From Boswellia sacra (taxonomy: Eukaryota; Streptophyta; Magnoliopsida; Sapindales; Burseraceae), in NCBI GenBank assembly GCA_013180625.2, contig SNVD02002604.1:1-64000 (forward strand): a stretch of 64,000 nt of DNA. The letters are read 5' to 3'. The notes under the pieces are model-generated. The model was not told the DNA's origin and ran no database searches. It saw only the letters and a list, made by a program, of their open reading frames with translations. Every line of letters starts with the position of its first letter. Within the stretch, counting starts at the first letter, position 1. Of this stretch, positions 1 to 60,151 are shown one piece after another. The translations under genes were made by a program, and so were the position numbers.

Positions 1-138
1 ACCCCCACCGAAATTATGTCCCCATGTGTCAAATTTGAGAGTTTTACGGTTGTATATATCCATTTTGCATATTCTCAAATGTCATTTTATAACCTGTCTT
101 GCACTTGAATCGCATAATACCTAACGTACATCATTGTC

Positions 139-817
139 TTGCACAAGTTTAGAGCACTTTTAGAAATGGAGAAAACACCAATTCGGCGATTCCAAAATAT
201 ATTCGTATTTTGTGGATCGCAATTTGGTAAAGATGGAGAGTTTACAACAGCAGCTCTTGATCTTGGTAGGACATTAGCTGCGAGGGGTATTCCTTTGATT
301 TCTGGAGGGGGTAGTCTTGGGTTAATGGGGTGTGTGTCGACAGCTGCATCCCTAGGAGGGAGCAAAGTACTCGGCATTATCCCTAAACCATTAGCTGTAC
401 GAGATATCGTAGGCAATACAATCGGGGAAGAGTTACAGGTTTCTAGTATTCATGAGCGTATTACACATATGGTCATTAAATCTGATGCATTTATAGCTTT
501 GTCCGGTGGTTATGGTACATTAGAGGAGATATTTCAAATCACCTCTTGGGCACAGCTAAACATCCATCGGAAACCCATTGGTTTGTTAAATGTCAATAAT
601 TTTTTTTGATGGTTTGTTGTCTTTTCTTGATCAAGCAGTAGAAAAAAACTTCATCACACCGTCGGCGAGGCAAATTCTGGTTACAGCTTCAACTGCAGGG
701 GAGTTAATTGATAAACTCCAAGAATTCGTCTATTCGCCTGATCCAACAACGGCTCGGATAAATTGGTTTGGAGAAGGCAACAAAAGGCGTCAACTGGATT
801 TAACCCTCCATCTGTAA
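139..817 (+). pseudogene. LOG: LOG-like cytokinin riboside 5'-monophosphate phosphoribohydrolase, copy 1 (one frameshift)
   Basis: LOG enzymes release active cytokinin bases from their riboside monophosphates in the cytosol. The reading starts at 139, with an alternative Met at 166. It shows the family order: FCGSQFGKDGEF near residues 25-35, GGGSLGLMG at 56-64, HER at 105-107 and SGGYGTLEE at 122-130, where known LOGs have PGGYGTLEE (Pro to Ser). It breaks at 601-610, where eight T's (600-607) replace the seven needed, and resumes in the next frame to the stop at 815-817. The corrected length of about 225 residues is normal for the family. Plant LOG genes usually contain several introns; this copy has none, which suggests retroposition or retroelement capture. 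The single homopolymer lesion could be a sequencing error, so the copy may be intact. The protein ends in LDLTLHL. Confidence 0.8.
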
Positions 818-2790
818 TCCCTATTTGCTGGTTTGCTTCGTTTTTGTTTGCTTTCTTTTTAGTGTGTTTATTTGAGATTTTTCATGTCATTTCTTTTGAG
901 TTTTTTTTTCAGGTTATTTCTTTCGCCCCAGGTAATATTTTCTAATCATGGCTTTTAGAGTGGTGGCTTAAAAAAGTTTAATTCCTCTTGAAACGCATTC
1001 TGGATCTCTTCAATCCATAATGGCTGAATAAGGAGGCTAACTTCTAAACTTTTTAGACCCATTCTAACTAACTTGTTTTTGCTTGCTGGCTTGTTGGACT
1101 TTGTTATTTTATGAGTAAATTTAGTTTTATGTAATTTAGAGCTGTTGTGTGTTTTTGTCTTTATCAGTTTTGATTCGAAAAGAAAAAAAAATATTGTGGA
1201 AAAACCTGAGAATGGCAGAATATGGGGTTTCGTTAACCCTTAAAACGCATTCTCTCTAAATAAATCTATAGTTTGTTTATTTCATGTTATTTGAAGTATC
1301 TTGTTTCTTGTTTTGTTCTTTCATAATAAAGGTATATAGGCTGGAAACCTTAAGTCTGCGGGCTACTGGTCCTAAGGATTGTTGAAATATACAATCTTGA
1401 CTCAGGTGTAACAACGCCACGTACCTCATTTTCTTGCATTTTGTGGGTCGATGATAAGATAATGATTGAATTAAGAATAACTCTTGGAAAATGATAAATG
1501 ATGCATGGATCTGTGTGCTTGAAATTTTATTGGTTTTCGCTTTGCTTTTGATTCCTTGCGCAACATTGAGCACTGAGCTATTATCACTGAGTTATTTGTT
1601 CACTTAGAGAAAGTTTATGTAATTTAAATGTTTCTTCAGATTTCAATGAATTCTAGAACTTGTTTGATGGTCACTCGAGGCGAAATCCTAGACTGTGCAA
1701 CATTGGGGAAATGATTTAGGTCATCTTTGGACCGTTTGAGCCTTAATAGCCAACCTTGACAGAAATTGATCCCTAGTTCCCCTTTGAGCCTCTGAAGCCT
1801 TTTTCTTTGTTAACTCACTAAAAGATTTCCTAACCTAAAATGAATTTGTTCCAAACAGTTTATTCCTTACCTATGAGCATGTAGGTCATTCACAATTAAA
1901 TTCTGAGCTATGTTCTGGTTTTGGGAAGTTAGAGGAGGTTGGGATGTGTCATGAGCAATGCAAGTGAGTTCTATTATGTTTGTAAAAAAAAAAAAGAAAA
2001 AAGAAAAAAAGAAAAAAGCCAATCTGTACTTATTGTCCACATACTTACACATTGGGGACAATGTGTTGTTTAAGTGTGAGGGAGGGGAAGTGTAATAAAA
2101 AAAAGAAAAAAAGAAAAAGGAAAAAAAGAGAACAAAAGAAGAAGAATAAGAGATCGATACCTTTAAGTGTTCCTAAAAAGAATAAAACAACAAAGTGTGG
2201 GGGTGTAGTTTTCTTTTGTTTTCTACAAAAAAAAAAAGATTGAGTGTTCTAAATAAGTTTGGGGGAGTAACTTGATAAATTGAAATAAAGTTGTGTTATA
2301 AGGTTGAGCTCTACATAGTCTTGAATGATTTATGTGTTTGTGGGTGATTTGAGCCAAATTATTATCCTTTATCGTACCTTAACCCAAGCCAAACGTTGCA
2401 AGCTTAATAAAGACCTACTTGATCTTTAGTGTTATGCTTGTCTACATTAGTGGAGAGTGACTTGAAAAGCAAGCCTATGGAGTTCATTTATACGCACATT
2501 TTCACTATTAAATATGATTCATTTTTATGCATAAACTCATCCGGGTTACAAATGATTAGGTGAGAATGGCTCTACACACACACACTTGAGGAATTGAAGT
2601 GAAGCGAAACTAATCCTTGAGATGAAATTCTTTATCAAGTGCATTATTTTGACGTTTTCCTTGGGTTGTAATTAAGTACAATCTTTGAGGCCTATTTGCA
2701 AGTTGAAGCATTTGTGTGTTTTAATTTTTCTTTGATTCTGTTTCGGTTTAGTTTTGTTTCATATCATCGTAGTTGCTCGAGGACTAGCAA
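818..2790 (+). other. Non-coding 3' region of element A
   Basis: No gene is recognisable here. The stretch is rich in A/G runs (1983-2020, 2094-2160, 2226-2240) and G-rich purine phrases typical of retroelement 3' ends. The segment around 980-1080 (cctcttgaaacgcattctgg and following) matches the segment after LOG copy 2 at about 5060-5145. So the homology of the two units extends beyond the coding region. Confidence 0.6.
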
Positions 2791-2810
2791 AGTTTAAGTG
2801 TGGGGGAATT
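2791..2810 (+). promoter_or_regulatory. Polypurine tract of element A
   Basis: The purine run aagtgtgggggaatt lies immediately before the TG that opens the LTR at 2811. This is the expected position of the plus-strand priming tract, and it shows that the internal region lies to the left. Confidence 0.65.
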
Positions 2811-4203
2811 TGATAGGTGTCTATTTATGTATCATTTTCATATCAATTCATGTATGTTTCTTTGCTATAATCCTTGATATTTTTATGTTTTTGTGTGGTT
2901 TTGATGTTTGTAGGAGTTTTGGAGGAACTTGCAGCAAAGTGAAGTAAAACCCTTCATTTTCACCTCTGCTAGTCAACCATGTTCTCGGATTTAATTGTAT
3001 TGATATACAATGAATCAGATAACATGTTATATACCGTTGGAAAGCTCTCGAAGTCTATTTTCTAGAGAAATTTACGGTTCATAAGTTTATTCAGTGTACC
3101 GAAAGTTATAATCAAAACAGTGTGAGAAGTGTAGAAATGTAATTCCACAAATCACTGTAGCATGTATAATACGGGACATTGTAGCAGGTTACTGTAGCAG
3201 AGTATATAAACACCTGTCTCTTATACACATCTAGATGTGTATAAGAGACAGACGTGGAGGAGGCTGCATCTTTGGATTTCTCTCATCTCTTGGAGTTCTT
3301 GAAGGAGATTGAAGGCTTGGAAAGAGGAAGAACTACAAATCCTAAGAGATTTTCATCAAATTTGCTAAGTTTTCACTTTCCCTTTCATTTTCTGGAATGT
3401 CTCCATATTGTATTGTATTTGTATTCTGTCTGAATATGTGTAACTAAATCTGAATGGTTGAGGGTGATTTCAAAGCCCTAGATATGGTTTTTGTGAATTG
3501 ATTGTGCAAGAATTGTTATCCAATTCTCTAATTGAAGTTGCTTGTATTTTCCCATGTTTAATGCTTATGATTGCTTGCTGGATTGTATTTGGGTGGCCAA
3601 CTGAATATAATCTGGATATTGTCTATTGCTAGACTAGAAATCTTGATCCGTAATTGTCTTGAATTTCTAATCATTAGTAGCAAAATTGTGATCAGAGATT
3701 GCAATTGGAGAATACAACCTAAGTTAAATAATCCGAGCTTGTGTGTTTATTGCTTAGATCAACCTATCTTTCTTATCGTAATGCATCCATTGAATTAAAT
3801 TTAGAGAGCTTGTTCTAGGTTGTTTAATGGATAGAGATTAAATAAAGAGCCTGTTTTATTTAACAAAAAAGTAAGGAAAGATTGGGATAACAGAGCTTAT
3901 TGTTATCTACGGTTGATAATTTCAATGGTGTAATTGGATGATAATTCTACAATTAATTCGCAAATCCATATCTTGTAGTGGAGAATGATCCCTTAACCAG
4001 AGTTCTATCATTGATTAATTCCCATTTCATTTAAGTTTGCATTGTGTTATTGCATCTAGTTAATCGACCAACAAAACCCCCCATTTAGTTAATTGTTGCT
4101 GGAAATAACAAATTCAATTAGAATCAATCCTCGTGGAAACGATATCTTACTTATCACTTTATTACTTGTGCGACTAGTATACTTGCTAGTTTCGAACGCA
4201 TCA
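2811..4203 (+). repeat. 3' LTR of element A
   Basis: It begins TGATAGGTGTC directly after the polypurine tract and ends GAACGCATCA. A TATA-like box (tatataaac, about 3203) fits an LTR promoter. LOG copy 2 starts at the base after the LTR, so the right boundary is sharp. The 38-bp library adapter at 3214-3251 is embedded in it, so the true LTR length and continuity across that point are unknown. The 5' LTR is not in the window. Confidence 0.7.
3214..3251. other. Nextera mate-pair junction adapter left in the assembly
   Basis: Bases 3214-3232 read CTGTCTCTTATACACATCT and 3233-3251 read AGATGTGTATAAGAGACAG. This is a perfect 38-bp palindrome of two Tn5 mosaic ends, which matches the circularisation junction of Nextera mate-pair libraries. 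It is not plant DNA. Sequences on either side may be non-adjacent in the genome. Confidence 0.97.
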
Positions 4204-4205
4204 TA

Positions 4206-4814
4206 TTCTATAGATCTCGACCGGGTAAAAGTGAAGAGTTTGTAGAAGTAGCGAATTATCTTGGTAGGTTACTGGCTGAAAGAGAGATTCATGTGGTTTA
4301 TGGGGAAGGTAGCCTTGGATTAATGGGTTGTGTGTTAACAGCTGCACTCGTAGGAGGCAGTCAAGTTTTAGGTATTATTCCTAAAGCTTTGGCTGTAGAA
4401 AGCATCGTTGGAAAAATAGTTAGGAAGGAGTTACAGGTCTCCTCTATGCATGAACGCATGACATATATGCTTATCAATTCGGATGCCTTTCTTGCTTTAC
4501 CAGGTGGCTTTGGTACTCTCGAATGAATTTTTTAAATTGCCTCTTGGGCCCAACTAAATCTTCATAAAAAACCTATAGGTTTGTTGAAGGTTAAAAATTT
4601 CTTTGATCCTTTGATAAGTTTTGTTGATGTAACTGTAGAACAGAATTTTATCCCTCATTCGGTGCGACAGATCCTTGTTTTTGTCACTTTTGCTAGTGAG
4701 TTACTTGACAAATTACAAGCAGTCCAGTATGAACTCGACCCAGCTATAACTCAAATTAATTGGTCAGGGGGACAAAACAAAAAGTGCAAATTGGATCTAA
4801 ACCTCCGTTTGTAA
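4206..4814 (+). pseudogene. LOG: LOG-like phosphoribohydrolase, copy 2 (5' truncated, two stops)
   Basis: The homology starts exactly at the end of LTR A. Codons from 4206 read F-Y-R-S-R-P-G-K, corresponding to the FCGSRPGK start motif with C to Y and G to R changes. The frame then stays open in one register to 4814 except for TGA at 4524 and TAA at 4533. Motifs are GEGSLGLMG (first G-G-G degraded to G-E-G), MHER and PGGFGTLE, where the TGA replaces the second Glu. The C-terminus LDLNLRL matches the LDLTLHL of copy 1. The N-terminal codons are missing because element A inserted within them; they should lie left of the window next to A's 5' LTR. It belongs to element B. Confidence 0.8.
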
Positions 4815-6142
4815 TTTTTCTTGTCTTTTATTTTAGCATTTTATTTTAAGTGTCTTTCAGGTCGTCTCTCTTGAATAACGGAAGCTTCAGGTAATGTCTC
4901 ATATACTTTATCTCTCTACATTTAAACATTGAGGTCAATGTTTCATTTAGTTAGGGGGGAAGGATAGTAGACATAAGTGTGTCTTGAATTTTCTTTTTCT
5001 TACCAAAAAAAAAAAAGCAAGTTAGTAATTAGATTTAGAGTGCGGTGTAAGGAGTGCAAATCCTCTTGAGACGCATTCTGGGTCAGTAGTGGCAGAGTAG
5101 GGATCGCCAGTTTGAACTCTTGAAGCACACTCTAACCAATTTGTCATTTTGTTTTGATTTTTGCATTTTTGAAGACTCATTTTAGCTAACTTGATATTAT
5201 TTAGTTTTGATTTTTGAATTTTATAACAAGGAGGTCTTATTCATTTCACTTTGAATTATTCAAATCTATGAACTCTCACAACCTTATCATTCAATAAATT
5301 TTATACTTATGTACTCGTTAAGCAAGTGTTCATGAACCTTTCTTCATACACACACATACCTTGATGTACAATTGTGGGTGGCGAAATGAAATGTTGTAAT
5401 ATTTGAGTTCTTTTGTTTTGTTTAGGATAATAACATAAGGAAGGGGCAAGTTCAAAAAAAAATGATGAAAGCAAAAAAAAAAAAAAAGAGCAATAGTGGA
5501 TAAGTTTGGTCTCATAGCCTCCTTAATCCAAGCAATTAAGCCCGAGAGGTGCCTTAACACCTAATACCTTAAGACCAACTGGTTTGGGAGCTATTGGCCC
5601 AAAGCTCGTTACATGGATTAAAGAGAAAGCTTAATGGGATTGAACATTACACTATTCACAAGTTTCTAAGCAAAAATAAAGTATCGGCAACTCGAATCGT
5701 TCAGCTTGTAGGGGTGTCTTAACACCTAATGCCCTAAGGCCAACTGGTCTGGGAGTCATTTGCTTAAGGCTCGCTACATGGGTTAAAGATGCATTCTTTC
5801 AAAAAAAAAAGAGAGAGAAAAAAGGGAAGAAAAAATATACATATACAAAAATAATGATGAATGAATAACCCCCTGCCTAAGGTTGTTATCCTTAACAAAT
5901 ATTAGAACTGATAAGGCTTCTTTCTAATAAGCCCCATAGTTATATATCGATTGAGCACAAAAATAATGATGAAGGTTTGTTAATATATTGACTGAAGGGT
6001 ACATGAATCATTTAAAAAAAAAATCGGTTGAGAGTTTGCTTATTTGGATAAAATCAAGTAGAGTGCAATAATGACCACCTTGGATGTAAAGTTCTATAAA
6101 TCACTTCTAAATAATAACGCTTTAATTGCTAGGGACTAGCAA
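4815..6142 (+). other. Non-coding 3' region of element B
   Basis: No gene is recognisable. After the LOG stop come 'gaggtcaatgtttcatttag' and a G-run (4954-4963) like those of element A. Two degenerate direct repeats follow, at about 5540-5620 and 5705-5790. Both contain 'taacacctaat', 'ccaactggt' and 'gctcg..tacatgg.ttaaag'. A/G-rich runs separate them. Confidence 0.6.
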
Positions 6143-6160
6143 TAAGCTGGTTGGGAGGTG
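6143..6160 (+). promoter_or_regulatory. Polypurine tract of element B
   Basis: The run ataagctggttgggaggtg precedes the LTR start TGATGAACAC at 6161. The upstream phrase 'gggactagcaa' also precedes the tract of element A ('ggactagcaa', 2781-2790), which supports kinship of A and B. Confidence 0.6.
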
Positions 6161-7440
6161 TGATGAACACTTAAACATATATGCTTAATAAGAGTTTAGT
6201 TTATCATATTGCATTAATAGTGTCATTAAATTCCTCAACTTAAGCATATTTATAGTCTTTGCATCTTTGGAATTAACTTTCTCTTAATTTTAGTTTTGTT
6301 ACAGGTTTGGTAAAATGGACATAATTTTTTATTTATAGATCAGAATGATGCAAATCATAATATTTTGAAAATCTGATTAAATTATCTAAAAAATTGCATT
6401 TCACAAGCATCATCAAATTCGGGCTCTTAGTGGACCGAAAATGGGCTTGAAGTGAACCCATCTTCAGTTTCAGCCTCAGTATTTTGATCATATCTCTCAA
6501 AATACATATCTAAATTATATGAATTAAGATGTTCTAGAAAGCTGAGAGAAATATCTACAACTTTCATGAAGACATGTGATCAAAATTCTCAGTAATTCAA
6601 TGTCAAAAGTGGTGGTCAAAGTCTGTTCACCTAATGATCCCAATTGTCAAAGTTGGTTCACCTAATATTTGACAATTATTCTTTTGTAATTTGACAAGTT
6701 TACCCCTGAATGTATCTATAAATAGAGGTGCCTTGTGACCCATGAGGGCATCTTGGCCTTGGCTGGGATCTTGTATTGTTTTTTTCTCTCTTGTGTTTTA
6801 ATGTTATTAATGAATTTCTCTTTTCTTACAATTTGTTTTCTTTCTTTTATAATGTCTTACTAAATTCTCTCTTGCTAAGGTGAAAGGGTGAAACCCTTGA
6901 TATGAGAAATCAATCTTGACACCACTCGTAAAGTGGAGGTCTTGATCCATTGTCGACAATCTTGGCACGTCAAATACTTGGATCCTTTCTAGATGTCGTA
7001 TGGTTCTTCCTTACCGACACAAGTCTAGTTAGGAACCTTGATTTGTTGTAGAGATATGGTGATTGGCACATTGGATGTTTGAACATACTTACAACAAGTG
7101 GTATAAATATTGGTAACGAAACAAATATAATTCATATAACTAAATGGGTTACTTATCCTTATTTGATATATCAAAGGTGGATCCCTTAATCTTAGCTTGC
7201 ATTATTATTTGTTAATTTATCTTGCATTTTAATTATTCTCATTTATTGTTCATGAACTTGTTCTTTACTTATATTTGTTGATATTATCTTACCATCTCTT
7301 TGAATCATCCATATCATATTTGCTCATTTTATAGTTTGTAGCACTAAAATCTCCTTCCTCGTGGATCGACCCCGGTCTCATCGGGTTTATTACTTCGACA
7401 CTCCTATACTTGGGAGACAATCCTATTTTCGGATGTGTCA
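6161..7440 (+). repeat. 3' LTR of element B
   Basis: The LTR begins TGATGAACAC and ends GGATGTGTCA. It carries a TATA box (tataaatag, about 6717) and a final GC-richer tail ('cgtggatcgaccccggtctcat'), as is common for gypsy LTRs. A minus-strand copia integrase reading begins in the next base, so B was inserted into that copia element. The LTR sequence differs from LTR A. Confidence 0.7.
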
Positions 7441-10086
7441 ATGATCAATTCCATGATATTTGCAAAAGTCAGCATAACTAACATTTTCAAATTCCTTTCC
7501 ATGATCACTTCTTATTCTCACAATCCTTCTAATGTTCCTATTTTGCTCATTTTCAAGCTTAACACAGATTCCTGAAAGCTTCAAAAGTATCAGATTTTTC
7601 TTTAATAAAATTAACCCAAGTATATCTAGAAAATCATCCACACAAACAAATATGTATCTTTTACCTGTAATGCTTTCAATTTGCATAGGACCCATAAGAT
7701 CCATATGAAGCAAATCAAGTATCTTAGATGTGCTAAGATGTGGATTTGATTTGTATGAACTTCTGATTTATTTTCCCACTTGACATGGTCCACAAACTTT
7801 ATTAATTTTGTCATCAAGTTTAGGAACTCCTCTTACAGAACCTAACTTAGTTAATTTAACCAAGTCTTTGTAATTTAAGTGTCCTAATTTTTGATGCCAC
7901 AATTCTAAATCCTAAATCCTAAAATGAAATGCAATTTTTACCAAAAAACAATTATCCGAGGATCTATTACCTTCTAGAATGCATTTACCGAAATTATCTA
8001 AGACCATGCATTTGTTTAGTGTGAAGTTAACGGTATACTTTTCATCACAAAATCTGACTAATGCTTATAAGATTAGCTTTCAAATCTTCAAATAGTAAGA
8101 CATTTTTAAAATTGGGTAGGCCTTTGACATTCAAAGTGCCTTTACCAATGATCTTACTTGTTGGTTCATCTCCAAAAGTGACATTGCCATCCTTGCATGC
8201 TTTAAAGTTTGTTAGAAACTATTTATTTCTAGTCATGTGCCTGGAACAGCCACTGTCAAAATGCCACAAATCATTAGATGTGTGACTAAGTGCAGTAAAG
8301 GCAACATGACATACTGTTTTGTCTTTCTTAACCCACTGTAGTTGTGATTTAGGTAATAATTTGAACTGTTTTAATCTTTTATGCAAAAGATTCAACAATT
8401 TAAAGCATCTAGGCCTAATGTGCCCCTTTTTACCACAAAAATAACAAATAGGAATGAATTTCGTTACCTTTTCAGAACTGGGTTTGAAAGAACTCAGGGG
8501 AGAAACAAACATTTCATTAATCTTTGAATTAGGACTCGTCCTTAAAGAGTTAGGTTCAAAATGTTCACCTGATGTTGAAGCTTTCACAAAGATTGTGTTT
8601 GATGAAGATGCAACATCACCTTTTGTATACCCCAATCCATATTTGTTGGAGTTGTCTTTTCCAAGATTTAGGACATGATCAAGTTTGGCTGCTCCAATTT
8701 TGAGTTGATCAACACACCTTTTGCTTTCAACCAGCTCTATTGTGATTTTCTCAATGTGTGTTATTTTATCTGTCAAAACAGTCTCCAATTCCAAGATACG
8801 ATTTTCAAAAAAGGATTTTTCACATTCCAGCACCTCAATCTTCTTCTTCAAGATTTTGATTTCTTCTTTCTAATTCAGCCATTCACCATAGAGTGCATTA
8901 TATGTATCTTGTAACTCTTCAGAGTATTTTGGTCCTTCTTCTTCATCCGAATGATCAATACTATTTCTGTAATTTTTTTATGTCAGACATAACAGCTTTT
9001 CCTTTGTCAGCTGCAGATGTAGTAAATGCAACATAGTTGCTCATGCAGTCTTGATCTTCTGACTCAGATTCTGATTCATCACTCCGGGTTGTTGTCAGTA
9101 CTTTGTTTTTCTTCTTGAGATTAGCACATTCAAATTGAATATGCCCATACCAGAACATTCATAACACTGAATCTGCCCTTTCTTTTCAGGTTATTTTGGC
9201 TTCTTCTTATCATTCTCCTTGCTGAACTTTCTGAATTTTTCTTCACTTGAGTTTGATGGCTTTGCTTGATTCTTTTTCCTGAAATTTCTTTTCATGAACT
9301 TGACAAAATTTCTTGTTAGAAAAGCAATATGTTTAGAATCAGTTTCATCAAGCTCATCACTACATTCATCATCAGATTTTTCAGCCTTCACATTAAATGC
9401 AATGCTTTTACCTTTTTGCTTTCTAGTACTTTGTTTATTTCAAAGTTTTGGAGAATGTCAATCAGTTCATCAACTCTCATTCATTAGTGTTTTTAACTTC
9501 CTCAATGGCTGAGATTTTGGGTTGAAATTTATCTGGGACAGACCTAATTATTTTTCTAACAACTTCTGCATCCGTGAAAGTTTTTCCAAGCATGTATGCC
9601 AAATTTGTAATATGACATATCTTAAAGTAAAACTCAAAAATTGACTCATCCTCATGCATTATCAGATTTTCAAATTGAGAATTAAGTCTCATCAATTTAG
9701 ATCTTTTAACAGATGCGGTACCTTCATGTTTTACCTCAAGTATGTCCCAAACTTCTTTGGCCACTTTGCACCTTGAAATCTGTCCGAAGTTATTTAAGTC
9801 CACTGCAACAAAAATTGCATTGACAGCCTTTGAATTCCAAATGGAACGTCGGTATTCTTCATCAGTCCATTCATCCTCAGGTTTTGGTTCGGAATCACCA
9901 AAAGCATTCAACTTTGTTGGCGGTGTCCATCCTTTAAGCACACTAGTCCATGCCCTGTCATCAAGAGATTTGATATACATCATCATTCTTACCTTCCAAT
10001 TTGAATAATTACCATCATCAACAAATGGGTGATTGTGTTTCAGATCCTCCAGTGCGAATAAACTCCATCCTTCCAGATCAATATGA
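7441..10086 (-). pseudogene. Copia gag-protease-integrase remnant (C1)
   Basis: Reading down from about 10086: a gag domain of the UBN2 type (MMMYIKSLDDRAW, WTDEEYRRS, VWDILEVKHEGT; 9477-9986); Lys/Ser-rich and acidic linker pieces (8961-9391) with a degraded first knuckle; a coiled coil; a second zinc knuckle CYFCGKKGHIRPRC; the aspartic protease motif FDSGCSRHMTRN (8219-8851); a pre-integrase segment; and integrase with LLHMDLMGPM, VDDF and RSDHGKEFEN (7438-7713). Several frameshifts and stops separate these blocks, so no functional polyprotein remains. The last codons abut LTR B at 7441. Confidence 0.85.
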
Positions 10087-10114
10087 TTATTTTCTTCACT
10101 TGTCTATCAGTGAA

Positions 10115-27144: not shown

Positions 27145-27225
27145 GGGCCCAAGTGAGACCTTATTTGCTATGCATAAAGGCTAGCTGACAGCCCGTCTTC
27201 GATTATTCTCATATTCATCAAAATT

Positions 27226-28062
27226 ATGAGAAATTCTATGTTGTTGCCACTAATCGTTGTGCTCTCAGCGTCGCTGGTGCAGGATGGGCTCGCCAGGAAC
27301 TTGCTCATGTTAGCAGCACCCTCTCCAGCACCTCAGGCTCCAGGATCTCCCTCTGAGGCTCCATCTCCGGCACCTCAGGCTCCCGGATCACCCTCTTCTG
27401 CTCCCTCTCCCGGATCACCCATTTCTGCTCCCTCTCCAGGATCACCCTCCGATGCTCCCTCTTCAGGATCTCCCTCTAATGCTCCCTCTCTAGGATCACC
27501 CACTGATGCTCCCTCCCCAGCACCTCAGGCTCCAGGATCACCCACTGATGCTCCCTCCCCAGCATCTAAGGCTCCAGGATCACCCTCTGATGCTCCCTCC
27601 CCAGCACCTCAGGCTCCAGGATCACCCTCTGATGCTCCCTCTCCAGCACCTGGTCAGGTTCCTTCTGGAACTCCATCTGAGACTCCCTCTCCAGCCCCCC
27701 AATCCTCTGAAGCTCCTTTCAAATCTCGCTCCCAATCACCCAAAAATAGTCCTTCCAAGTCCCCCTCTGAAGCTCCTAAAGCTCATCATCATCACGTACC
27801 TGGACTACCAATTCACCCTCTCCACCCTTGGCTGCCACCCTTGGTAAGGGAAGCAATAGAATGTTGGTCACCAATTTGCCAAGTCAAAGGTTGCACAGTT
27901 GGGATTATGAGGGCATTTTTTACAAGCAAGGCTGACCATATGCACGGAAATTGTTGCAAAGCCATCGCAAAAACAAGTGATGACTGCGCTAACAAGATGT
28001 TTCTTCCATTGGGCACCAAGGCCTTCAAGATTCTTCAAAAACATTGCTCACCTCATGCTTAA
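27226..28062 (+). CDS. Secreted arabinogalactan-like protein with C-terminal prolamin-like (ECA1-type) cysteine domain
   Basis: A single-exon 278-residue protein, and the only intact host gene I see. Residues 1-23 (MRNSMLLPLIVVLSASLVQDGLA) form a signal peptide, so it should be secreted to the wall or apoplast. Residues 31-185 are Ala/Pro/Ser/Gly-rich with SPAPQAPGSPSDAP-like 14-residue repeats, typical sites for proline hydroxylation and arabinogalactan addition. A His4 run lies at 187-190. The C-terminal part has cysteines at 213, 218, 223, 243, 244, 254 and 274 in a C-C-C-CC-C-C order, resembling the prolamin-like/ECA1 gametogenesis-related family with one extra Cys (218). Relatives of that domain act in reproductive tissue, but the role here is unknown. 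A DNA-level 42-bp repeat underlies the Pro-rich part, so repeat number may vary. There is no hydrophobic C-terminus for a GPI anchor. Confidence 0.8.
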   Translation: MRNSMLLPLIVVLSASLVQDGLARNLLMLAAPSPAPQAPGSPSEAPSPAPQAPGSPSSAPSPGSPISAPSPGSPSDAPSSGSPSNAPSLGSPTDAPSPAPQAPGSPTDAPSPASKAPGSPSDAPSPAPQAPGSPSDAPSPAPGQVPSGTPSETPSPAPQSSEAPFKSRSQSPKNSPSKSPSEAPKAHHHHVPGLPIHPLHPWLPPLVREAIECWSPICQVKGCTVGIMRAFFTSKADHMHGNCCKAIAKTSDDCANKMFLPLGTKAFKILQKHCSPHA

Positions 28063-44199: not shown

Positions 44200-47100
44200 T
44201 CAATCAATATCATCCATCCCATCATCATTGTCTTCTCTATTAATGATAATTGTTGTGCCTTCAACTCCTTGCCTAACCCATTGAACATCTTCCTCACGAA
44301 AATAACCTCTTTCATCAAATTCTTGTTGTGTATATAGCTCAACTTGTGGCACCATGTTTACGGTAGATGAACTTTTGGAAGTGAAATCATATGTATCTCT
44401 CATTGTCATTTTAAGCACAACATGCCAATCTTCATCCATCGGATCTTGAATATAACAAACTTGCTCAGCTTGTTCTGCTAAAATGAAAGGTTCATCATCC
44501 ACATGATTATCTTTATATAATAGATGATTAAAATTAACCAAGGTGAAGTCAAATTCATCACACTTCTTTCCAATCCGATTATCAACCCAATCACACTTGA
44601 ACCACATAAAAGTCATGTCATTGACATAATGAATTTGAATTATATCTGTTAACACTCCAAGAAATGTGACATTGCCCGAAAGAGGATTGTTATCTCGTGC
44701 ACTAGAGTAGCTCATGGTATCAGCCTTCAAAATAACACCACATTGCTGAGTTGTTTTGTGCTTATCGGTGTCTTTGATTCGAAATTTGAAGCCATTAACA
44801 CTATAAGATTTATAACGATGTGCGCCCGATTTAGGCCCATTAGCTAAATTGATGATTTCCTTGGACAATGATACATTTGAGGTCTCTTGTAAGGAGTAAA
44901 CCTATAGGAACACATAGTTAGATTTCAAAGTTAGTATAATGATAGCACTTCAATAGATAACTAAGACTTACATGACTTCGAAACCATTCATGGAAGGTTT
45001 TGTTATGCTCTTTATGGATTTCGTGAATGGTAGGACGAGGCCTTTGACGTTGAAGTTCATTTAGATGCTTCCTGTGTGAGAAGACATCAAAAGACATTAC
45101 TAACAATGGGAGTCAAACTTAGCAAGTTGCTTAGAAAAAGAAATGATGATGCATATCTTACTCTCGAAAGGGATCAATAGAAGGTGTATTAACTAGCACA
45201 TATCTATGTGCTTGAACCCAAGAGACATGATCAAGTTCAAAATGCTCTCCTTCACTAGAGGTACCATCCTTATTTCGAGGTCCTCGATTAATTTTAGTTT
45301 CGACCTCATCAAGATATCTTGAGCAAAAATTTATGCACTCTTCCAGTAGATATCCCTTAGCAATAGAAGCCTCCGGGTGTGCACGGTTGCGCACATATCT
45401 CTTCAGAGTTAGTAAATACCTATAGAATCCGAAATCTTTCTAAGTAGATATTCATAGATAAGAATGGAAGTTAAAAGAACATTACGTAACAAGTGACTTA
45501 GTAGTACCTTTCAACAGGATACATCCATCGAAATTGTACCGGTCCCGCTAAAGATGCCTCTTGAGCAAGATGAATGGGCAAATGCTCCATTATGTCAAAG
45601 AATGAAGGTGGAAAAATTTTCTCAAGATGGCACAGTGTAAGCACAACTCGATATTGAATAGAGTTTAAGTCTTCTGCAGTATTCACTTTGGAGCACAGTT
45701 GCTTGAAAAAGTTTGCTAACTCAATCAAAGTAACAACAACATTTTTTGGCAAAGCCCTTCGAGCAGCAAGAGGAAGCAATTGTTGTATCAAAATATGATT
45801 ATCATGACTTTTCAAACTTGAAATGCTCCGCTCTTTCATGTGAACACGCCGTCGAATATTTGATGCATAACCATCCAGTAACTTCACTTTCTTCAACACA
45901 CTAAGAAAGACATCTTTATTATCTTTGTTCATTGAGAAGCATGCAGGAGGTAAATACAATTTGTTAGCACCTCGTTGTTGAGGATGCAGAGCTTTCCTTA
46001 TTTTCATATCCCCCAAATCAAGTCGAGCCTTCAATGAATCTTTTTATTTCCTCGAATCCCCTAACAATGTCCAGAGTATATTATCACATACATTCTTCTC
46101 AATGTGCATGACGTCAAGATTATGTCTAATCAAGTTATGCTCCCAATATGGTAGTTCAAAGAAAATGCTTTTTTTCTTCCAACTGTTTGCTTGATTTGTC
46201 ATTTCAGAATTATTCACTCTTCTCTGAAGGTCTTCCATCTTATACTCGGTAAGAACATTTTGTAATTGTATTTTTACATCAACACCAGACAAGCAAGCTG
46301 GAGGTGGTCCCAATTCCGCTTTCCCATTAAACGATATCCTATCCTTTCGAAATCTATGAGTACTGGGCAAGTATCGCCGATGACCCATGTAACAAAACTT
46401 TCTACTATGAGACAACCATTTAGATATCGTATTTTCCATACAGCAAGGGCATGCTTTCTCACCTTTAGTGCTCCAACCCGATAGATTAGCATATGCCGGA
46501 AAATCATTGATAGTCCACAATAATGCTGCATGTAGTTTGAACATTTGTCGACACGATGCATCATAGGTTAGCACACCTTCACTCCATAATTGTTTTAATT
46601 CATCAATCAGCGGCTGCATATAGACATCAATTTTATTTCCAGGACCTTTTGGACCATCAATTAGCACAGAAAAATGAAAAAAGTTTCCTTCATACACAAC
46701 CAAGGAGGTAAGTTGTATGGCATCAACATAATAGGCCATGTACTGTGCGCTATGGACATAGTCCTGAATGGATTAAATCCATCTGCTGCCAATCCAAGTC
46801 TGACATTACGAGAATCAGCAACAAAAGCAGGATGCTTTTCATCAAAAGTTCTCCAACAAGGGCTATCAGCCGGATGTCTAAGCACACCATCTTTAATGCG
46901 ATCTTCTGCGTGCCATCGCATTAAAGAAGCAGTTTTTGAAGACATGAATAATCTTTGCAACCTAGGAATTAGTGGAAAGTATCTTACTTGTTTTGCAGCA
47001 ATTTTACCAGTGGGATTTGATGCATCATTCACCTCATCAAAGTTCTTATATCTAGACTCATGGCATATGCAACACCTATCCAAATTTCCATACTCACCTC

Positions 47101-47773
47101 TAAACAACATACAATTGTTGGGGCAAGCATCCCAAGACTGGTATGTAAACCCCAAGTCAGTAGTTATTTTTTGTGCCTCATAATATGAAGAAGGAATTTT
47201 GGAATTTTCTGGAAAGGCTTTCTGCAACAGTTTTAGTAACTTTGTCATTGAGGTGTCCGTCCATCCGTGCAACACTTTTAATTGCAAAAGTTGAACAGTA
47301 AAAGAAAGTGAAGTAAAACTCTCACAACTTGGATACAATGGACACTCTGCCTCCTGAAGAAGTTTTAAATATCTCTCAGTTTCTTGATCCAATGGATGAC
47401 TACTACCTTCACTAAAATCATTATTCGGAAGCCCAATGGCTTCATGTATCATTTCGACCATATCATCACCCACAGTGGAATCACAACCAACCTCCAAATG
47501 TTGGTTGGGTTGGTTGGGTTGGTTAGACTCAAGTGGTGTATATTGTTCTCCATGTAAGGTCCACCTTTTATATGTTCTAAGAAACCCATTACAGATTAAA
47601 TGCTCTCTTGTTGTGTATCTATCCAAACGATATCGATTGTGACATTTCTTACATGGACATAAAATTCTAGTATCGTTAACTAGATTGCCAAAAGCAAAAT
47701 TTAAGAATCTCTCAACCCCACTGAAATATGCATGACAACAGCGATTTTGTAAGTCAATCCAACTCTTATCCAT
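44200..47773 (-). pseudogene. TNP2 (TNPD)-type CACTA transposase, one frameshift and one nonsense codon
   Basis: The catalytic protein that cuts and joins CACTA ends. Inferred exons are 47773-45508, 45419-45162, 45071-44972 and 44901-44200, all GT-AG, about 1108 residues. Order: transposase-associated N-terminus MDKSWIDLQNRCCHAYFSGV with CPCKKC; a Cys/His region (CPNNCMLFRGEY..CCICHESRYK); the TNP2 core (KQVRYFPLIPRLQRLF, LAADGFNPF at about residue 328, INDFPAYANLSGWSTKG, LDVMHIEKNVCDNILWTLL); DUF4218-like LPLAARRALP..LCHLEKIFPPSFFD; and DUF4216-like FKFRIKD..WFKCDW. Lesions are one missing base in the A-run at 46677-46682 and TAA at 46044-46046 after LLGDSRK. Both are single changes, so decay is recent or partly technical. 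Confidence 0.88.
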
Positions 47774-50364
47774 GGGTATGTTCCTTAAAGAAAGTAGATG
47801 TAATCCATATCAAGATAGGTAAAATAATAACTATTGAACAATTTCTAAGCATGAAAAACAAACATAGACAGAACAAAATAATGATAATTTCCTCAGAATT
47901 GAGACAGTTTTATTATTGTAATATTCAAGCTCATGATTACCGAAAGCCAACATTATATATTATCTAGAATTCAGTAACGTTTAGAATTTGACCTATTTAA
48001 TTAATGAATTTATCATGCGAGTATTTAGCTACACTCATCTGTTGCCTTGTGGTGAAAGAGAAAATTAACAGAAAAAAAAGAAGCACAATCATAATCTAAG
48101 GTGAGTTGTTACTATATACAATCACAATAGTTTCAACCAAAGTGGGATATGATCGCATCACATGGCTGCAAAAGAAAATTTATAATTTTTATAGGTAATA
48201 TGACTGTTATATTTATCTTACCAAAAAGCTCTTGAAAGAAGCTACCAAGTAAAGAGAACCAAGCACCTGCAGCAAATGAAGAACCAAGACTCTTATGTCT
48301 TCCGAGTTCAAAATAGTTCCAATTCTTAAATCAAGAAAAGTGACCAACAAGATATCTACATGAATGTATAGTCAATCATTACAGACAATAAATTTTTCTT
48401 TTTTGGTGCAGCAACTGATCTAAATCCTGCACCTTTTTAAATTTTTTTTTAAAACCCAGAAATCCCTTAACCCTTTCTATATCTTCACCGAGTTCTAGAA
48501 TAGAGGCTACTTCCAAAGCCAATAACTTTGGTAGCTAAGAAAACATATGTGATACAAATAGCACAAGTAAACAGCATCAAAGTGAAGTTCAACCCCAGAC
48601 CTCTTGGTTTCTTACATCCCAAAAGTCCGGTTAGAAGAGACACTAACTTCTACTCTCTGGAATAATTTCCCTCTCACTTCTGTTTTCAAAACAGTTATAG
48701 TTAAAAACAGCCCCAAATTTAAGGAGATAATAGAAGTGAAAAACATTGCAGACAGAAAGCTCACAACTTAAAGCTTTCTGTCTGCAATGTTTTTCACAAA
48801 AAAATGGTGACATGATAATCCTACAGAAAGAAAGCAACATGTATACACAAAAAGCTCAAAGCTTCATCAGACCCAGATCTCAGACTCCTCATATATTTAC
48901 ATGAAAAGACATGCAAGTATTTATAAAGGAAATGAAGGGAAAGAAAATAAAATTCAATGCGTTACCTAAAGGAATTAAATCCGATATCAAAGCGAGAAGA
49001 AACCACTGAGAAGATTCAAAATGATCCACCAACTGAACTTATCTCAACCTCTTTGACAACACTGAAGAAGATTTCTCTGCCAAAACCATAAAAAAAAACA
49101 CAAAAAAAAAAACTCAGCTTGGATGTTGCTAACTCAAAGAAAATGGGAAAAAAAGAAGAAGCGGTCTTTCTTCACCACCCCGAAAATAATGAACCATTAC
49201 TCCCCACATTTCCCCACCAAGCAAACGTACCTCATAACAACCAAAACACGAGAACACTAAAAAAACAAAGAGATTTGGATGTTTTATGGAAAAATGATGG
49301 TGTATCAGTGTATAACCACAACAAGAACAAAAGAAACAGAAGTTGGAGAAGAAAAAGGAAACTGTGGAGGACGATGATGTGGCTGTCGATGTGGAAATGG
49401 ATACTTGGCTGATGAAGAACCGAAAAAGCCCGTGGGCAGGTAAGAAGGAGGGAGTGCAAACAGAGTTGATAGAAGACCAAAAGAAGTATGTAGAGGAGTA
49501 TGCAAAGAAGAAGGAAGAAAAAGGTAATGCAGGAGATAGGAGTTTCAATTGAGAGAATTGAGAGAAGAGTTCAAAGAGATACGGCATCAAATGTTGGAAC
49601 CAGTTGCATCAAAATCCGAAAAGTAGTAACAATTATTCATCGACATAACTAATTTTTGGTGCAGCAATGCTCACACCCGTCGGTGATGTGATTTCAAATG
49701 CGTGCTTGGGAATTCAGAATCCAATCCCCTTTTCACTTTAGTTTATTGGCACCAAACCCACAACAAATGAACAAAAACGCAAACACAGATGATACATCAC
49801 CAGTGAATCACAGCACAAGTCATGGAGGTTTACAGAGAAAAAGGTGGAGTGTAGAAACATATGAAATACGGATGATGCAGGCATACATACAATGATACAA
49901 GTCATGGAAACACAATAGCAAACGCTTACACAATAGCACAAGTCGATAACGGGAGTTCTGGGAGCAGCTCGATGCCGAAAACACACGACTCACAAGCCCA
50001 CAATATTCGACAGAGCACTTTGTCTCCTCCTGCGTCAGCGCATTTCCCTCGCCACAATGTTCGTTGACGCGGTTGAAGACAACTCGAAGATCCCTTATGG
50101 AGGTTGGCAAACTCAGCGGAGGAGTGGTGGAGTTAGATCTGGCTTGGCGGAGAAAATGCAAATCCGAAACAGGGAAGCTTGGCACGACCGAGGAAATACA
50201 AGAATTTTGGGGAGAGATGAGAGGGAGATCGAAATTTGGTGGAGCTGCAATTCAAGAATCTGATGAGCGGGCGAAAACGCGAGAGAGATGAGAGGGAGAT
50301 CGAAATAATTTGATCCAATTCCCGCTGTTAGGGCAAAACTAATTTGGGGATTTTTGCCCCAGTT
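47774..50364. other. CACTA 2 region upstream of TNP2, no clear gene
   Basis: No protein family is recognised on either strand. 50050-50330 read on the minus strand looks like a pyrimidine-rich plant 5' leader ('ctctcatctctccc') and may be the TNP2 promoter/leader with introns down to 47774. A plus-strand Lys/Glu-rich frame at 49119-49552 is open but unidentified. Confidence 0.4.
48736..48797. repeat. Perfect 26-bp hairpin inside CACTA 2
   Basis: Arms 48736-48761 and 48772-48797 are exact reverse complements (start GTGAAAAACATTGCAGACAG), separated by a 10-base loop. Confidence 0.9.
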
Positions 50365-52860: not shown

Positions 52861-53882
52861 TGTTAGCCCTAACGCTACAAAATAATTTTGATGATAACAA
52901 TACACATTGATTCATAAGGTGTTACTAATATGTTTATTTATGTGCAAGAATAAGATTTAATAAAATAATTGTAAAATCAAGAAAAGGCTTATTAAAATGA
53001 AGTGTTGAAGCTAAGGAGAAGACTACATGTTAAAGGCACCAAAGTTTAAGAACAAGGTTTTATTCAAGGAATGTGACACATGAGTAATATTCAATTAATT
53101 GGTCATATATTTCTCTACAGATATCCAAATGACGTGATTCTTGAGCCTTTGGAAAGCTTACTCAATTTATAACATTTAATATGTTTTAAAGAAATTTAAA
53201 TTTCAAGTGTATGGTTGTCCAAATCATCATGCAAGTTGAAAGACAAATAGAAGCAGCTGACATGAGCACCGAATACTCTTTTGGAAATATCTTGAGCTAG
53301 AAAAATCAAAATGACTTGATTCTTATGGCATTGGAAAGAGGACATAATGAGGCACATTTCATATGTTTTGAATAAATTCAAATTTCAAATGGAAGGCTGA
53401 CATAATTGACATGCAATTCGGTGGACTAACACAAGAAAGAAAAATCAACTCACATGAGCACCGAATGGTGTTTTGGCCATATCTTAAGATAGAGATATTC
53501 AAATTCTTTGATTCTTAATGTTTTGGAAAGCTTATTCAAATATGCAGATCTTTTATGTTTTGAGTAAATTCAAATTTCAAACGCAATGCTGACAGAATTA
53601 TCATTCAATTCGGTGGACGTAGGCAAGGTTTGCCGAACCACGTACATCGAGTTTGCACTCTCTCTATCCCTATACTCTTTACATTTACTTGCACTTGTGA
53701 TTGTTCATTATTATTATTCTCTTGATTACATATTTAATAACTTCTAATTTCATCTTCTTCACCTTCATTCTCAAAGAAAGAGTAAACTAATTTTGATCTT
53801 TCAAGAAAAGTTTTACAAATCCGTTTTGATAAATAAAAACCCAATTCACCCCCCCTCTTGGGTTGCCATACCTGGGTCAACA
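52861..53882 (+). repeat. 5' outer LTR of C3
   Basis: Near-identical to 60152-61173. It contains three degenerate tandem units of about 185 bp (53115-53600, 'gacttgattctta.g..ttggaaag...tatgttttga.taaattcaaatttcaaa'). It lacks the TATA-bearing segment present in the internal LTR. Confidence 0.92.
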
Positions 53883-53884
53883 AG

Positions 53885-53900
53885 TGGTATCAGAGTAAGG
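53885..53900 (+). promoter_or_regulatory. Primer binding site of C3 (a second one at 55609-55624)
   Basis: TGGTATCAGAGTAAGG follows the outer 5' LTR, and TGGTATCAGAGCAAGG follows the internal LTR. Both match initiator tRNA-Met. Confidence 0.88.
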
Positions 53901-53937
53901 TTGCTCAATTTTTTAAATCTTAATCGATTTTTGAGCT

Positions 53938-54521
53938 ATGGCAACTTTTAATTCAACTTCATATGTTGAGGGACTTTCTATCTCTAGACCTCCATTTTTT
54001 AATGGAAGTGATTACTCTTATTAGAAAACTAGAATGAGTATTTTCTTGAAATCTTTTGATTATGGTTTGTGGTCTATTGTTTTGGAAGGACCTTTTATTC
54101 CTACCAAAATTGAAAATGGGGAATGCATGCTTAAAGAACCTAAAGAGTTTAGTGAAGATGATAAAAAGAAATTGAGTTTGAATGCTAAAGCTATGAATGT
54201 GATGTATTGTGCTCTAGATAGAAATGAGTTTAATAGAATATCTACTTGTTCTACGGCACAAGAAATATACCACACACTTGAAGTAACTCATGAAGGAACT
54301 AGTCAGTTAAAGAATCCAAAATTAGTATGCTAGTTCATAGTTATGAGCTTTTTAAGATGAAATCGGATGAATCAATTTCTGAAATGTTTACTAGATTTAC
54401 GGATATTATTAATAGTTTGAAATCTCTTGGTAAATCTTATTCTAATGTTGAAATGGTGAGAAAGATTCTTAGGTGTCTACCAAAATCTTGGGAGCCAAAG
54501 GTGACGGCAATTAAAGAAGCA
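53938..54521 (+). pseudogene. First gag copy of C3, cut by the gap
   Basis: It starts MATFNSTSYVEGLSISRPPF, then after a TAG in place of Trp gives KTRMSIFLKSFDYGLWSIVL and the UBN2-type region to PKSWEPKVTAIKEA. It has one frameshift near 54330 and ends at the N run. It duplicates the gag at 55663. Confidence 0.8.
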
Positions 54522-54621
54522 NNNNNNNNNNNNNNNNNNNNNNNNNNNNNNNNNNNNNNNNNNNNNNNNNNNNNNNNNNNNNNNNNNNNNNNNNNNNNNN
54601 NNNNNNNNNNNNNNNNNNNNN
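54522..54621. other. Assembly gap (100 N)
   Basis: Exactly 100 N's, the conventional size for a gap of unknown length. Confidence 1.
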
Positions 54622-55606
54622 AAAGCTTATTCAAATATGAAAATCTTTTATGTTTTGAAGAAATTCAAATTTCAAACGGAAGGCTGACAGAATTATCATT
54701 CAAGTCGGTGGACTGACACATGGAGGAAAAATCAAGTCACATGAGCACCGAATGGTCTTTTGGCCATATCTTGAGCTACAGATATCCAAATGACTTGATT
54801 CTTGATGCGTTGGAAAGCTTATTCAAATGTGAAAATATTTTATGTTTTGCAGATTTTCAAATTTCAAACAGAACATTGACAAAAAGGCAGACAAAATTAC
54901 GGTTTTTATTGTGGGCAGAAAATTTGGAGTTGGTGTCTTCACTTGATTAAGTTCATCTCATTTGCCTATAAAAGGAGCCATTCTCCCATGCATTCAAGGA
55001 GAGCAAGAGAAGCATCTATCAAGCAAAAAAAAACCAAGAGAAATATCAAGTCTAGAGAGCTTTTGTATTCTTTATCTATTCTTTGAAGAGAGTTGTACTT
55101 TTGTTGTAAAAACTTTTCTTTGTTCTTATATTGTGTGAGAGTGAGATCTTCTTGTAAAGGATAAAAGATATCCTTGAGAGAACTCTTTCCTTGGTGATGT
55201 TGTTCATCAAGAAGAACTCTTGGTGTGTGTTATCAAGAGTTGAAGGAAAAGTGGTCTTGGTGAAGTTGTTCACAAGCAAGTTGGTAAAGTATTCTACAAC
55301 TTTAGTGGAAAGCCTAGCTTGTGTAGGAGCTAGGAGCCCGTGGAATAGCAATGTTTTGCCGAACCACTAAATTGAGTTTTGCACTCTCTCTATCCCTTTC
55401 CTCTTTACATTTACTTGCACTTGTGATTGTTCATCATTATTATTCTTTTGATTGCATCTTTGATAATTCTAATTTCATCTTCTTCACCTTTATTTTCAAA
55501 GAAAGAGTGAACTAATTTTGATCTTTCAAGAAAAGTTTTCTAAATCCGTTTTGATAAATAAAAACCCAATTCACCCCCCCTCTTGGGTTGACATACCTGG
55601 GTCAAC
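54622..55606 (+). repeat. Internal, partial LTR of C3 family with promoter segment
   Basis: It resumes inside the LTR after the gap and ends GGGTCAACA before a primer site. Compared with the outer LTRs it has about 600 extra bases, including tataaaagg (54968) and a transcribed leader (55000-55350). It appears to be the ancestral, fuller LTR form. Confidence 0.85.
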
Positions 55607-55662
55607 AAGTGGTATCAGAGCAAGGTTGCTCAATTTTTTAAATCTTAATCGATTTTTGAGCT

Positions 55663-59911: not shown

Positions 59912-59949
59912 TTTTGTTTTTATATGATAATCTTTGAATGGTAGCACAT

Positions 59950-60151
59950 GTTAAGGGGGAGAATATGTTTAGGGGGAGTAATTAATTTGATTAAATCTTT
60001 TTTATGATAACAAAAGGGGGAGAAATGGATGGTTTGCTTATATTCATAACAATTGCTCTCTTTTTGCTTATTGTTGATTTTATTTTCCTTCTTGATTTTA
60101 GATTATATTTTAAAACAATCAATGGTTTGTCATCATAAAAAAGGGGGAGAT
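59950..60151 (+). promoter_or_regulatory. Multiplied polypurine tracts of C3
   Basis: Purine tracts ttaagggggagaa (59951), tttagggggagt (59969), aaaagggggagaaa (60012) and aaaaagggggagattg (60139) occur before the LTR. Repeated tracts are a reported hallmark of Sireviruses. Confidence 0.75.

Follow-up and report, generated by a model that had tools for sequence, protein, structure and literature searches.

Why should a coding region for LOG, a cytokinin-activating enzyme, lie upstream of the long terminal repeat (LTR) of a retroelement, and why should it do so twice in close succession? This question is raised by the first 64,000 nucleotides of contig SNVD02002604.1 of Boswellia sacra (hereafter the window). 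At its left end stand what are probably the 3′ portions of a pair of decayed elements belonging to a single Ty3/gypsy lineage, itself probably Athila-like. From sequence comparison we propose, with moderate confidence, that this lineage carries a selected accessory module of two genes, LOG and a second open reading frame (ORF) for a nucleic-acid-binding protein (NABP), which would probably serve as a local cytokinin activator and a silencing suppressor, respectively.

The two LOG regions (LOG A and LOG B below) share 68.6% identity across 593 bases. Both match PF03641 in Pfam (1.1e-26 for the LOG A piece; 1.6e-14 and 5.3e-11 for the LOG B pieces), a match to PF18306 (SLOG cluster 4) is also found in LOG, and among solved structures two plant proteins, 2a33 and 1ydh, come closest to LOG A. 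The frame of LOG A is broken at a T-run near position 600, and the shifted frame, whose PF03641 match (3.1e-4) falls under the cut-off, terminates at the stop 815–817; LOG A also reads LSGG where LPGG is expected. Elsewhere in the genome the motifs GGGSxGLMG and PGGxGTxEE are present in 18/18 open LOG copies (the 20-copy set described below, and kin). Judged by its sequence, LOG is a single-ORF homologue of the cytokinin-riboside-monophosphate phosphoribohydrolases, and copies that are open have the motifs intact. The two regions and the features that follow them are arranged in this order:

166..817, + strand: LOG A coding region of the type-A element (ATG at 166; open 166–606; the rest in the frame 602–814; stop 815–817)
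984..1003, + strand: motif in the 3′ untranslated region (UTR) of A, CCTCTTGAAACGCATTCTGG, common to B, with a weaker second copy near 1236
2781..2790, + strand: GGACTAGCAA phrase upstream of the polypurine tract (PPT) of A, also in B
2798..2810, + strand: PPT preceding LTR A, gtgtgggggaatt
2811..4203, + strand: LTR A (TGATAGGTG...GCATCA), with TG...CA ends; its 3′ end interrupts LOG B
4204..4814, + strand: LOG B coding region, first 40 bases absent, in-frame stops at 4524–4526 and 4533–4535
5062..5081, + strand: 3′ UTR motif of B, CCTCTTGAGACGCATTCTGG
6133..6142, + strand: GGACTAGCAA phrase upstream of the PPT of B
6149..6160, + strand: PPT preceding LTR B, ggttgggaggtg
6161..7440, + strand: LTR B (TGATGAACAC...TGTGTCA), likewise with TG...CA ends, the 3′ LTR of the B-type element

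The original prediction, made from the letters of this stretch alone, had described two LOG-like regions in sense orientation, each ahead of a PPT and a 3′ LTR. Homology, tracts and stop-to-LTR distances (1,993 bases from LOG A to LTR A, 1,346 bases from LOG B to LTR B) agree with that description, but both ORFs are broken and the elements are nested. The two 3′ UTRs are dissimilar apart from a match of 24/27 bases (E 1e-4) and the GGACTAGCAA phrase, the same two signs that had been named as shared between A and B. Both signs are borne out: with at most one mismatch, the UTR motif and the phrase each recur in 7/7 loci examined (six of type A and one of type B, drawn from the 20 loci fetched as described below), and the motif is found with at most four mismatches in 18/20 B-type loci. 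Type-A 3′ UTRs contain two copies of a CTCTTGAAACGCATTCT-like motif separated by about 250 bases (window 984 and ~1236). Many B-type 3′ UTRs have it too (window 5062), followed about 54 bases later by another copy that is weaker.

As the contig begins at window base 1, the gag-pol regions of both copies in the window are unreadable, and the element is described here from its relatives in the B. sacra assembly (638.6 Mb, 7,431 contigs). A genome search with PF03641 scored the best 150 of 10,198 first-look candidates, a sample biased to the best copies. All 150 scored places lie above the cut-off and are stop-free inside, which sets a lower bound of at least 150 on the number of LOG copies. Twenty of these copies were taken with their flanks, the choice being made by long contig. 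LOG is followed by a type-A 3′ UTR in 19 of the 20 and by a type-B 3′ UTR in one (L018); LTR sequence comes after the UTR in 19/20 (L011 shows 50 bases of it), the remaining copy, L013, having a 5′ LTR and no visible 3′ LTR. With all 20 fetched copies in type-A (19) or type-B (1) elements, the proposal that LOG is a passenger of a retroelement is upheld for this genome.

A DNA query spanning LOG, UTR and LTR (139–4203) gave a partial answer to whether LTR copies lack LOG. The best 40 of 12,704 candidates were scored and 39 of them are non-self; 14/39 run continuously from inside LOG via the 3′ UTR into the LTR at 91–93% identity, and the other 25/39 start in the 3′ UTR. One of these 25, C5729, has a LOG match at the expected distance in the PF03641 list. 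Searches with the LTRs themselves matched in 40/40 scored places each (best 40 of 6,805 candidates for LTR A, best 40 of 6,350 for LTR B).

The element runs 5′ LTR, primer-binding site (PBS), gag, protease, reverse transcriptase (RT), RNase H, integrase, NABP, LOG, 3′ UTR, PPT and 3′ LTR, an order pieced together from several copies. LOG-UTR-LTR units recur and pol lies upstream in 3/20 fetched copies (L016, L022 and L023), but no single copy was read whole. In L016 the pol ORF lies upstream of LOG and carries RVT_1 (26–179), RT_RNaseH (270–371), H2C2 (473–528) and rve (549–642). This order of RT, RNase H and integrase, seen in the one pol ORF scanned, is that of Ty3/gypsy elements. A gag domain is found in L018 (PF03732). 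Directly after the 5′ LTR stands tggcgccgttgccgggga or a close variant of it (L014, L020 and L028) in 16/16 copies with a complete 5′ LTR (15 type A, 1 type B). We take tggcgccgttgccgggga to be a PBS complementary to tRNA-Asp, typical of Athila/Tat elements; the fetched loci yielded no tRNA genes to match it. A second RNase H (aRH) is absent from the Pfam scan of the L016 pol ORF, which fits Athila and not Tat, the presence of aRH being what separates Tat from Athila in the part of PMC6317226 consulted. The ATHILA ORF-1 domain PF03078 was not among the Pfam matches of 10 ORFs scanned; this feature is optional, being reported there for only 16% of Athila elements (PMC6317226).

No pol sequence is present in any of the 16 copies with a complete 5′ LTR. 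The type-A copies among them, which would be about 9 kb long, have an ORF containing a protease (PF13650, E 6e-4, under its cut-off). LTR pairs of 14 copies differ by Kimura two-parameter (K2P) distances of only 0–0.063 (509–1,140 bases compared; L011 was dropped, its 3′ LTR being 50 bases), which indicates that the element has been active recently. At L015 a type-A 3′ UTR and LTR (sense 1–3034) lie directly before the element, and the two copies seem to share a tandem LTR.

Between pol and LOG the genome copies reveal a further ORF of about 183 amino acids, which lies outside the window. In L013 its product matches PF05515 (Viral_NABP) at 1.9e-10 with 41.6 bits (cut-off 23) and PF01623 (Carla_C4) at 3.1e-5 with 24.3 bits (cut-off 20.9). 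PF05515 is matched by 34 of 38 aligned homologues, and PF01623 also by 34 (E 0.01). In the B. sacra genome PF01623 lies above its cut-off in 150/150 scored matches. Searched against a library of viral structures with a weak model and low TM-scores, NABP draws 22 named proteins of betaflexi- or allexiviruses (family placements that are in part our assumption) and 3 unnamed ones at ranks 1–25, and 20 of the 22 named proteins are called silencing suppressor or nucleic-acid- or RNA-binding protein. The profile matches show NABP to be a Cys-finger protein related to viral NABPs, a relationship in line with the structure ranking, and NABP is very probably homologous to the nucleic-acid-binding proteins or silencing suppressors of betaflexi- and allexiviruses. 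The likeness to the proteins of carla-, viti-, allexi-, tricho- and pruneviruses consists of a basic stretch, a Cys finger and Pfam scores above cut-off. The viral NABP is encoded 3′-terminally in the betaflexi- or allexivirus genome, whereas the element NABP sits in an LTR retrotransposon between integrase and LOG and is longer than the 69–170 amino acids of the 25 top-ranked viral entries; it is thus a relative of viral genes and not a viral gene. A gag-type zinc knuckle is not favoured for this ORF, as Pfam assigns it to viral NABP families and finds gag elsewhere. A block, ggtcaagtggcggatacggtactccg, about 100–120 bases upstream of the NABP ATG is kept with small changes in the B-type loci L018 and L029–L036.

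NABP and LOG occur together from whichever side they are approached. NABP sequence stands upstream of LOG in 20/20 fetched LOG copies. Conversely, in 20 loci hand-picked from the 150 PF01623 places, with places near a contig start left out, LOG lies downstream in 20/20 and is each time closer to B than to A. In a second set of 8 NABP-found loci, LOG is present in 6/8 and a piece of pol lies upstream of NABP in 7/8. As C7144 is common to both sets, there are 27 distinct loci found via NABP alone, and LOG follows NABP in 25 of them; of the two loci without it, L034 extends over just 1,617 bases, whereas in L032 no LOG is seen. The pairing extends to other hosts. A protein search returned 154 NABP relatives, and gene models of Populus, Xanthoceras, Rhamnella, Orobanche and Gossypium are among the 120 listed. 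NABP and LOG domains fall within one gene model in P0195 (Rhamnella) and P0211 (Orobanche minor); by eye, P0238 (cotton) ends in a LOG-like tail, a probable NABP-LOG join, and P0193 (Rhamnella) starts with an integrase-like piece. Such joint models in other plants imply either that NABP and LOG were paired before these host lineages arose or that the pair has passed from one lineage to another.

A LOG tree of 63 sequences (7 of our own, 35 of 120 listed database rows, 20 of 120 listed LOG1/LOG3-type rows, and AtLOG8) splits our A and B copies together with 34/35 of the sampled top database rows from the 20 LOG1/LOG3-type rows and AtLOG8 at 100/100. The Xanthoceras model P0107 is basal to the clade that holds our copies. 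Within this clade our A and B copies lie in different subclades, each of which also contains rows from other sources (93/92 and 98/88). The clade takes in LOG-like models of Reevesia, Paulownia and Populus (‘LOGL10’), which may have been annotated as genes of the host while being copies of an element.

To what extent the two genes are maintained can be read from the ratio of nonsynonymous to synonymous substitution rates (dN/dS), computed pairwise by one method, Nei–Gojobori (NG86), for the protease ORF, NABP and LOG in the same 14 pol-less type-A copies; these are the 16 copies with a complete 5′ LTR minus L010, a partial copy, and L018, which is type B. The protease ORF has a dN/dS of 0.656 (dS 0.141) and is intact in 2/14 copies. 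NABP, on which the copies were not chosen, has a ratio of 0.122 (dS 0.073; intact in 6/14), and LOG, on which they were chosen, one of 0.132 (dS 0.152; intact in 13/14). Across types, LOG gives 0.196 over 120 pairs (15 × 8 copies) at a dS of about 1.26, which is near saturation, and six A copies against L018 give 0.154–0.195. With the caveats of sampling taken up next, LOG and NABP appear to be under purifying selection in this lineage, including in derivatives that lack RT and integrase.

Several observations weigh against a selected module of this kind. Besides the near-saturated dS between types, the LOG ratio within type A is biased low because the LOG copies are the best-scoring open ones, and the protease-ORF alignments contain up to 23 indels, which may inflate dN. 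In the 20 B-type loci chosen on NABP, 12 LOG frames are ungapped and 8 are open, one of the latter, L045, being scrambled inside. These B-type LOGs have a dN/dS of 0.41 (0.43 for open frames), and both LOG motifs are unchanged in 4 of the 12 ungapped frames. Both LOG copies in the window are themselves broken, and the host LOGs in the tree are confined to the LOG1/LOG3 type and AtLOG8. The NABP model built from 73 homologues is moderate to weak (predicted local distance difference test, pLDDT, 65.8; predicted TM-score, pTM, 0.36; pLDDT of an earlier model 54.3), and no Foldseek match of it in the viral library reaches E 1e-3 (best 0.049). NABP relatives were found neither in viral contigs nor, up to E 1, among solved structures (PDB). 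PF01623 is absent from 14 control genomes, a weak control given that the named ones are microbes. We read the mixed ratios as constraint in the active lineage together with free decay after insertion.

How might such a module act? Many viral NABP relatives bear the name RNA silencing suppressor, while LOG enzymes go by that of cytokinin riboside 5′-monophosphate phosphoribohydrolase. NABP and LOG would be translated from the element mRNA, perhaps from spliced forms, which are possible given that acceptor-like sites, noted by eye, precede both ATGs. At slightly better than even odds, NABP would bind RNA or siRNA and shield element RNA from silencing. The counterpart for LOG, for which we see a little less than an even chance, is that it would free active cytokinin in the expressing cell and keep that cell dividing or meristem-like, so that new insertions could reach the germ line. 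Copies without pol would rely on mobilisation in trans and would retain the module. A wider formulation, possible but doubtful as yet, is that this is a eudicot-wide retrotransposon lineage with a pathogen-like module for host control, combining a virus-type silencing suppressor, which would disable defence by small RNAs, with a hormone-activating enzyme, which would drive the host cell to divide, and kept by selection even without RT. If so, the accessory genes, and not pol, would be what pol-less copies cannot lose. The lineage offers two extra ORFs of recognisable biochemical families in conserved order, and the selection on them can be told apart from that on the protease ORF of the element itself. 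The role of the accessory genes is thereby open to standard assays of enzyme activity and of silencing in leaf patches.

The alternative that survives best concerns the window and not the lineage. Window position 4204, which abuts the end of LTR A at 4203, corresponds to base 41 of the B-type LOG ORF that is open in L018. LOG B is thus shortened by 40 bases at the very point where LTR A ends, which means that a type-A LTR is inserted into a B-type LOG ORF. Within LTR A lies a further feature:

3214..3251, strand not assigned: perfect 38-base palindrome (19+19), probably a sequencing-library adapter

We take it to equal the Nextera mate-pair junction adapter. Ordinary LTR sequence stands at this position in 9/9 other copies of LTR A, and the same 38-base string is present at one place in L023 and at two in L025. 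LOG A with the left half of the LTR and LOG B with the right half may therefore have been falsely joined, and the assembly may contain false joins wherever the palindrome stands (the window, L023 and L025). We give even odds to the pairing of LOG A and LOG B being an assembly artefact in which two LOG elements were joined through an adapter inside LTR A. Each LOG-LTR unit is, however, seen elsewhere in the genome, which limits the doubt to the linkage of the two halves, and the junction of LTR A and LOG B at 4203/4204 lies about 950 bases away from the palindrome. Two neighbouring intact LOG elements, by comparison, are rejected, given the nesting, the breakage of both and the possible false join.

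The remaining alternatives bear on the module itself. It is unlikely, in our estimation, that LOG serves the element without cytokinin, through nucleotide pools or ligand binding, and that NABP is an RNA chaperone or packaging factor. The PF18306 match of LOG would suit such roles, as would the names of several viral NABP relatives, which go no further than nucleic-acid- or RNA-binding protein; the best solved-structure matches of LOG A are nevertheless plant proteins (2a33 and 1ydh), and the LOG motifs are kept in 18/18 open copies. That both genes are functionless passengers, captured once and copied along, with their openness reflecting recent insertion, we consider improbable. The youth of the LTR pairs, the broken copies in the window and the B-type LOGs not chosen on LOG (ratio 0.41, 8/20 open, motifs unchanged in 4/12) would agree with passive carriage. 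It is made less likely by the contrast within the same 14 copies, where at similar dS (0.152 for LOG, 0.141 for the protease ORF) the protease ORF decays and NABP and LOG do not, and further by the A × B ratio of 0.196 and the adjoining of NABP and LOG in other hosts. That LOG is merely a chance neighbour of an LTR is rejected, as LOG and LTR recur as units.

We thus retain a selected NABP-LOG module, and set it beside systems already described. Plant LOG1 and LOG3 share with the element LOG the PF03641 domain, both motifs and a length of about 216 amino acids. Host LOG genes have introns; the element LOG is an uninterrupted ORF within LTR elements at no fewer than 150 places and, as the tree shows, forms a clade separate from LOG1/LOG3 (100/100). 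Non-autonomous LTR derivatives without pol are known as the classes TR-GAG and LARD. The 16 copies with a complete 5′ LTR resemble them in having LTRs and a PBS and lacking RT and integrase; they differ from these classes in that, in the 14 of them used for dN/dS, the protease ORF decays but NABP and LOG are still held by selection.

LOG as a passenger of a retrotransposon is real but known. Steinbauerova is said to have noted, in 2011, two Athila-like elements similar to LOGL4 in their 3′ part. A LOG (YgdH) domain is reported in LTR-element consensuses of Citrus sinensis and C. clementina and, under a relaxed filter, of Populus trichocarpa, in a passage that calls this finding ‘in line with’ Steinbauerova 2011 (PMC9289625), whereas the original prediction knew of no described LTR element with a LOG passenger. 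The likeness of these Citrus, Populus and Athila-like elements to ours, as far as those accounts extend, is the LOG coding region within an LTR retrotransposon; in contrast to the present lineage, the section on LOG in PMC9289625 contains no selection test and no pol-less derivatives. The word ‘carlavirus’ occurs 0 times in PMC9289625 and PMC11963269, and the titles and abstract openings of papers returned by a literature search gave no relevant report of an NABP in retrotransposons, which supports its absence from print weakly. The survey PMC6317226 states in its consulted part that extra ORFs were kept only if they had at least 250 codons. Plant LTR elements with an extra ORF in the env-like slot, as presented in the portion consulted of PMC7264820, resemble ours in the sense-strand position between pol and the 3′ LTR, and the present lineage differs in that it has two such ORFs, whose domains are conserved and can be recognised. 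Apparently new are the pairing of NABP with LOG, the order in which they stand and the contrast in selection among pol-less copies.

The rest of the window contains other mobile elements and a possible gene. Beyond the end of LTR B lie Copia-type remains (7441–10103, − strand) with a PF14223 gag match of 1.1e-18 at 9480–10103. Transposase_21, Transpos_assoc and DUF4216 at 44203–47809 (− strand) mark the remains of a DNA transposon, which we take to be of CACTA type. A second Copia element (53000–61300, + strand) carries GAG-pre-integrase, Pol_BBD, rve and SH3_retrovirus and lies amid blocks that repeat at spacings of about 1.7 and 7.3 kb. At 27178–28059 (+ strand), a Pro/Ser-rich repeat ORF ends in a Prolamin-like domain (PF05617, 4.7e-9) and is perhaps a host gene.

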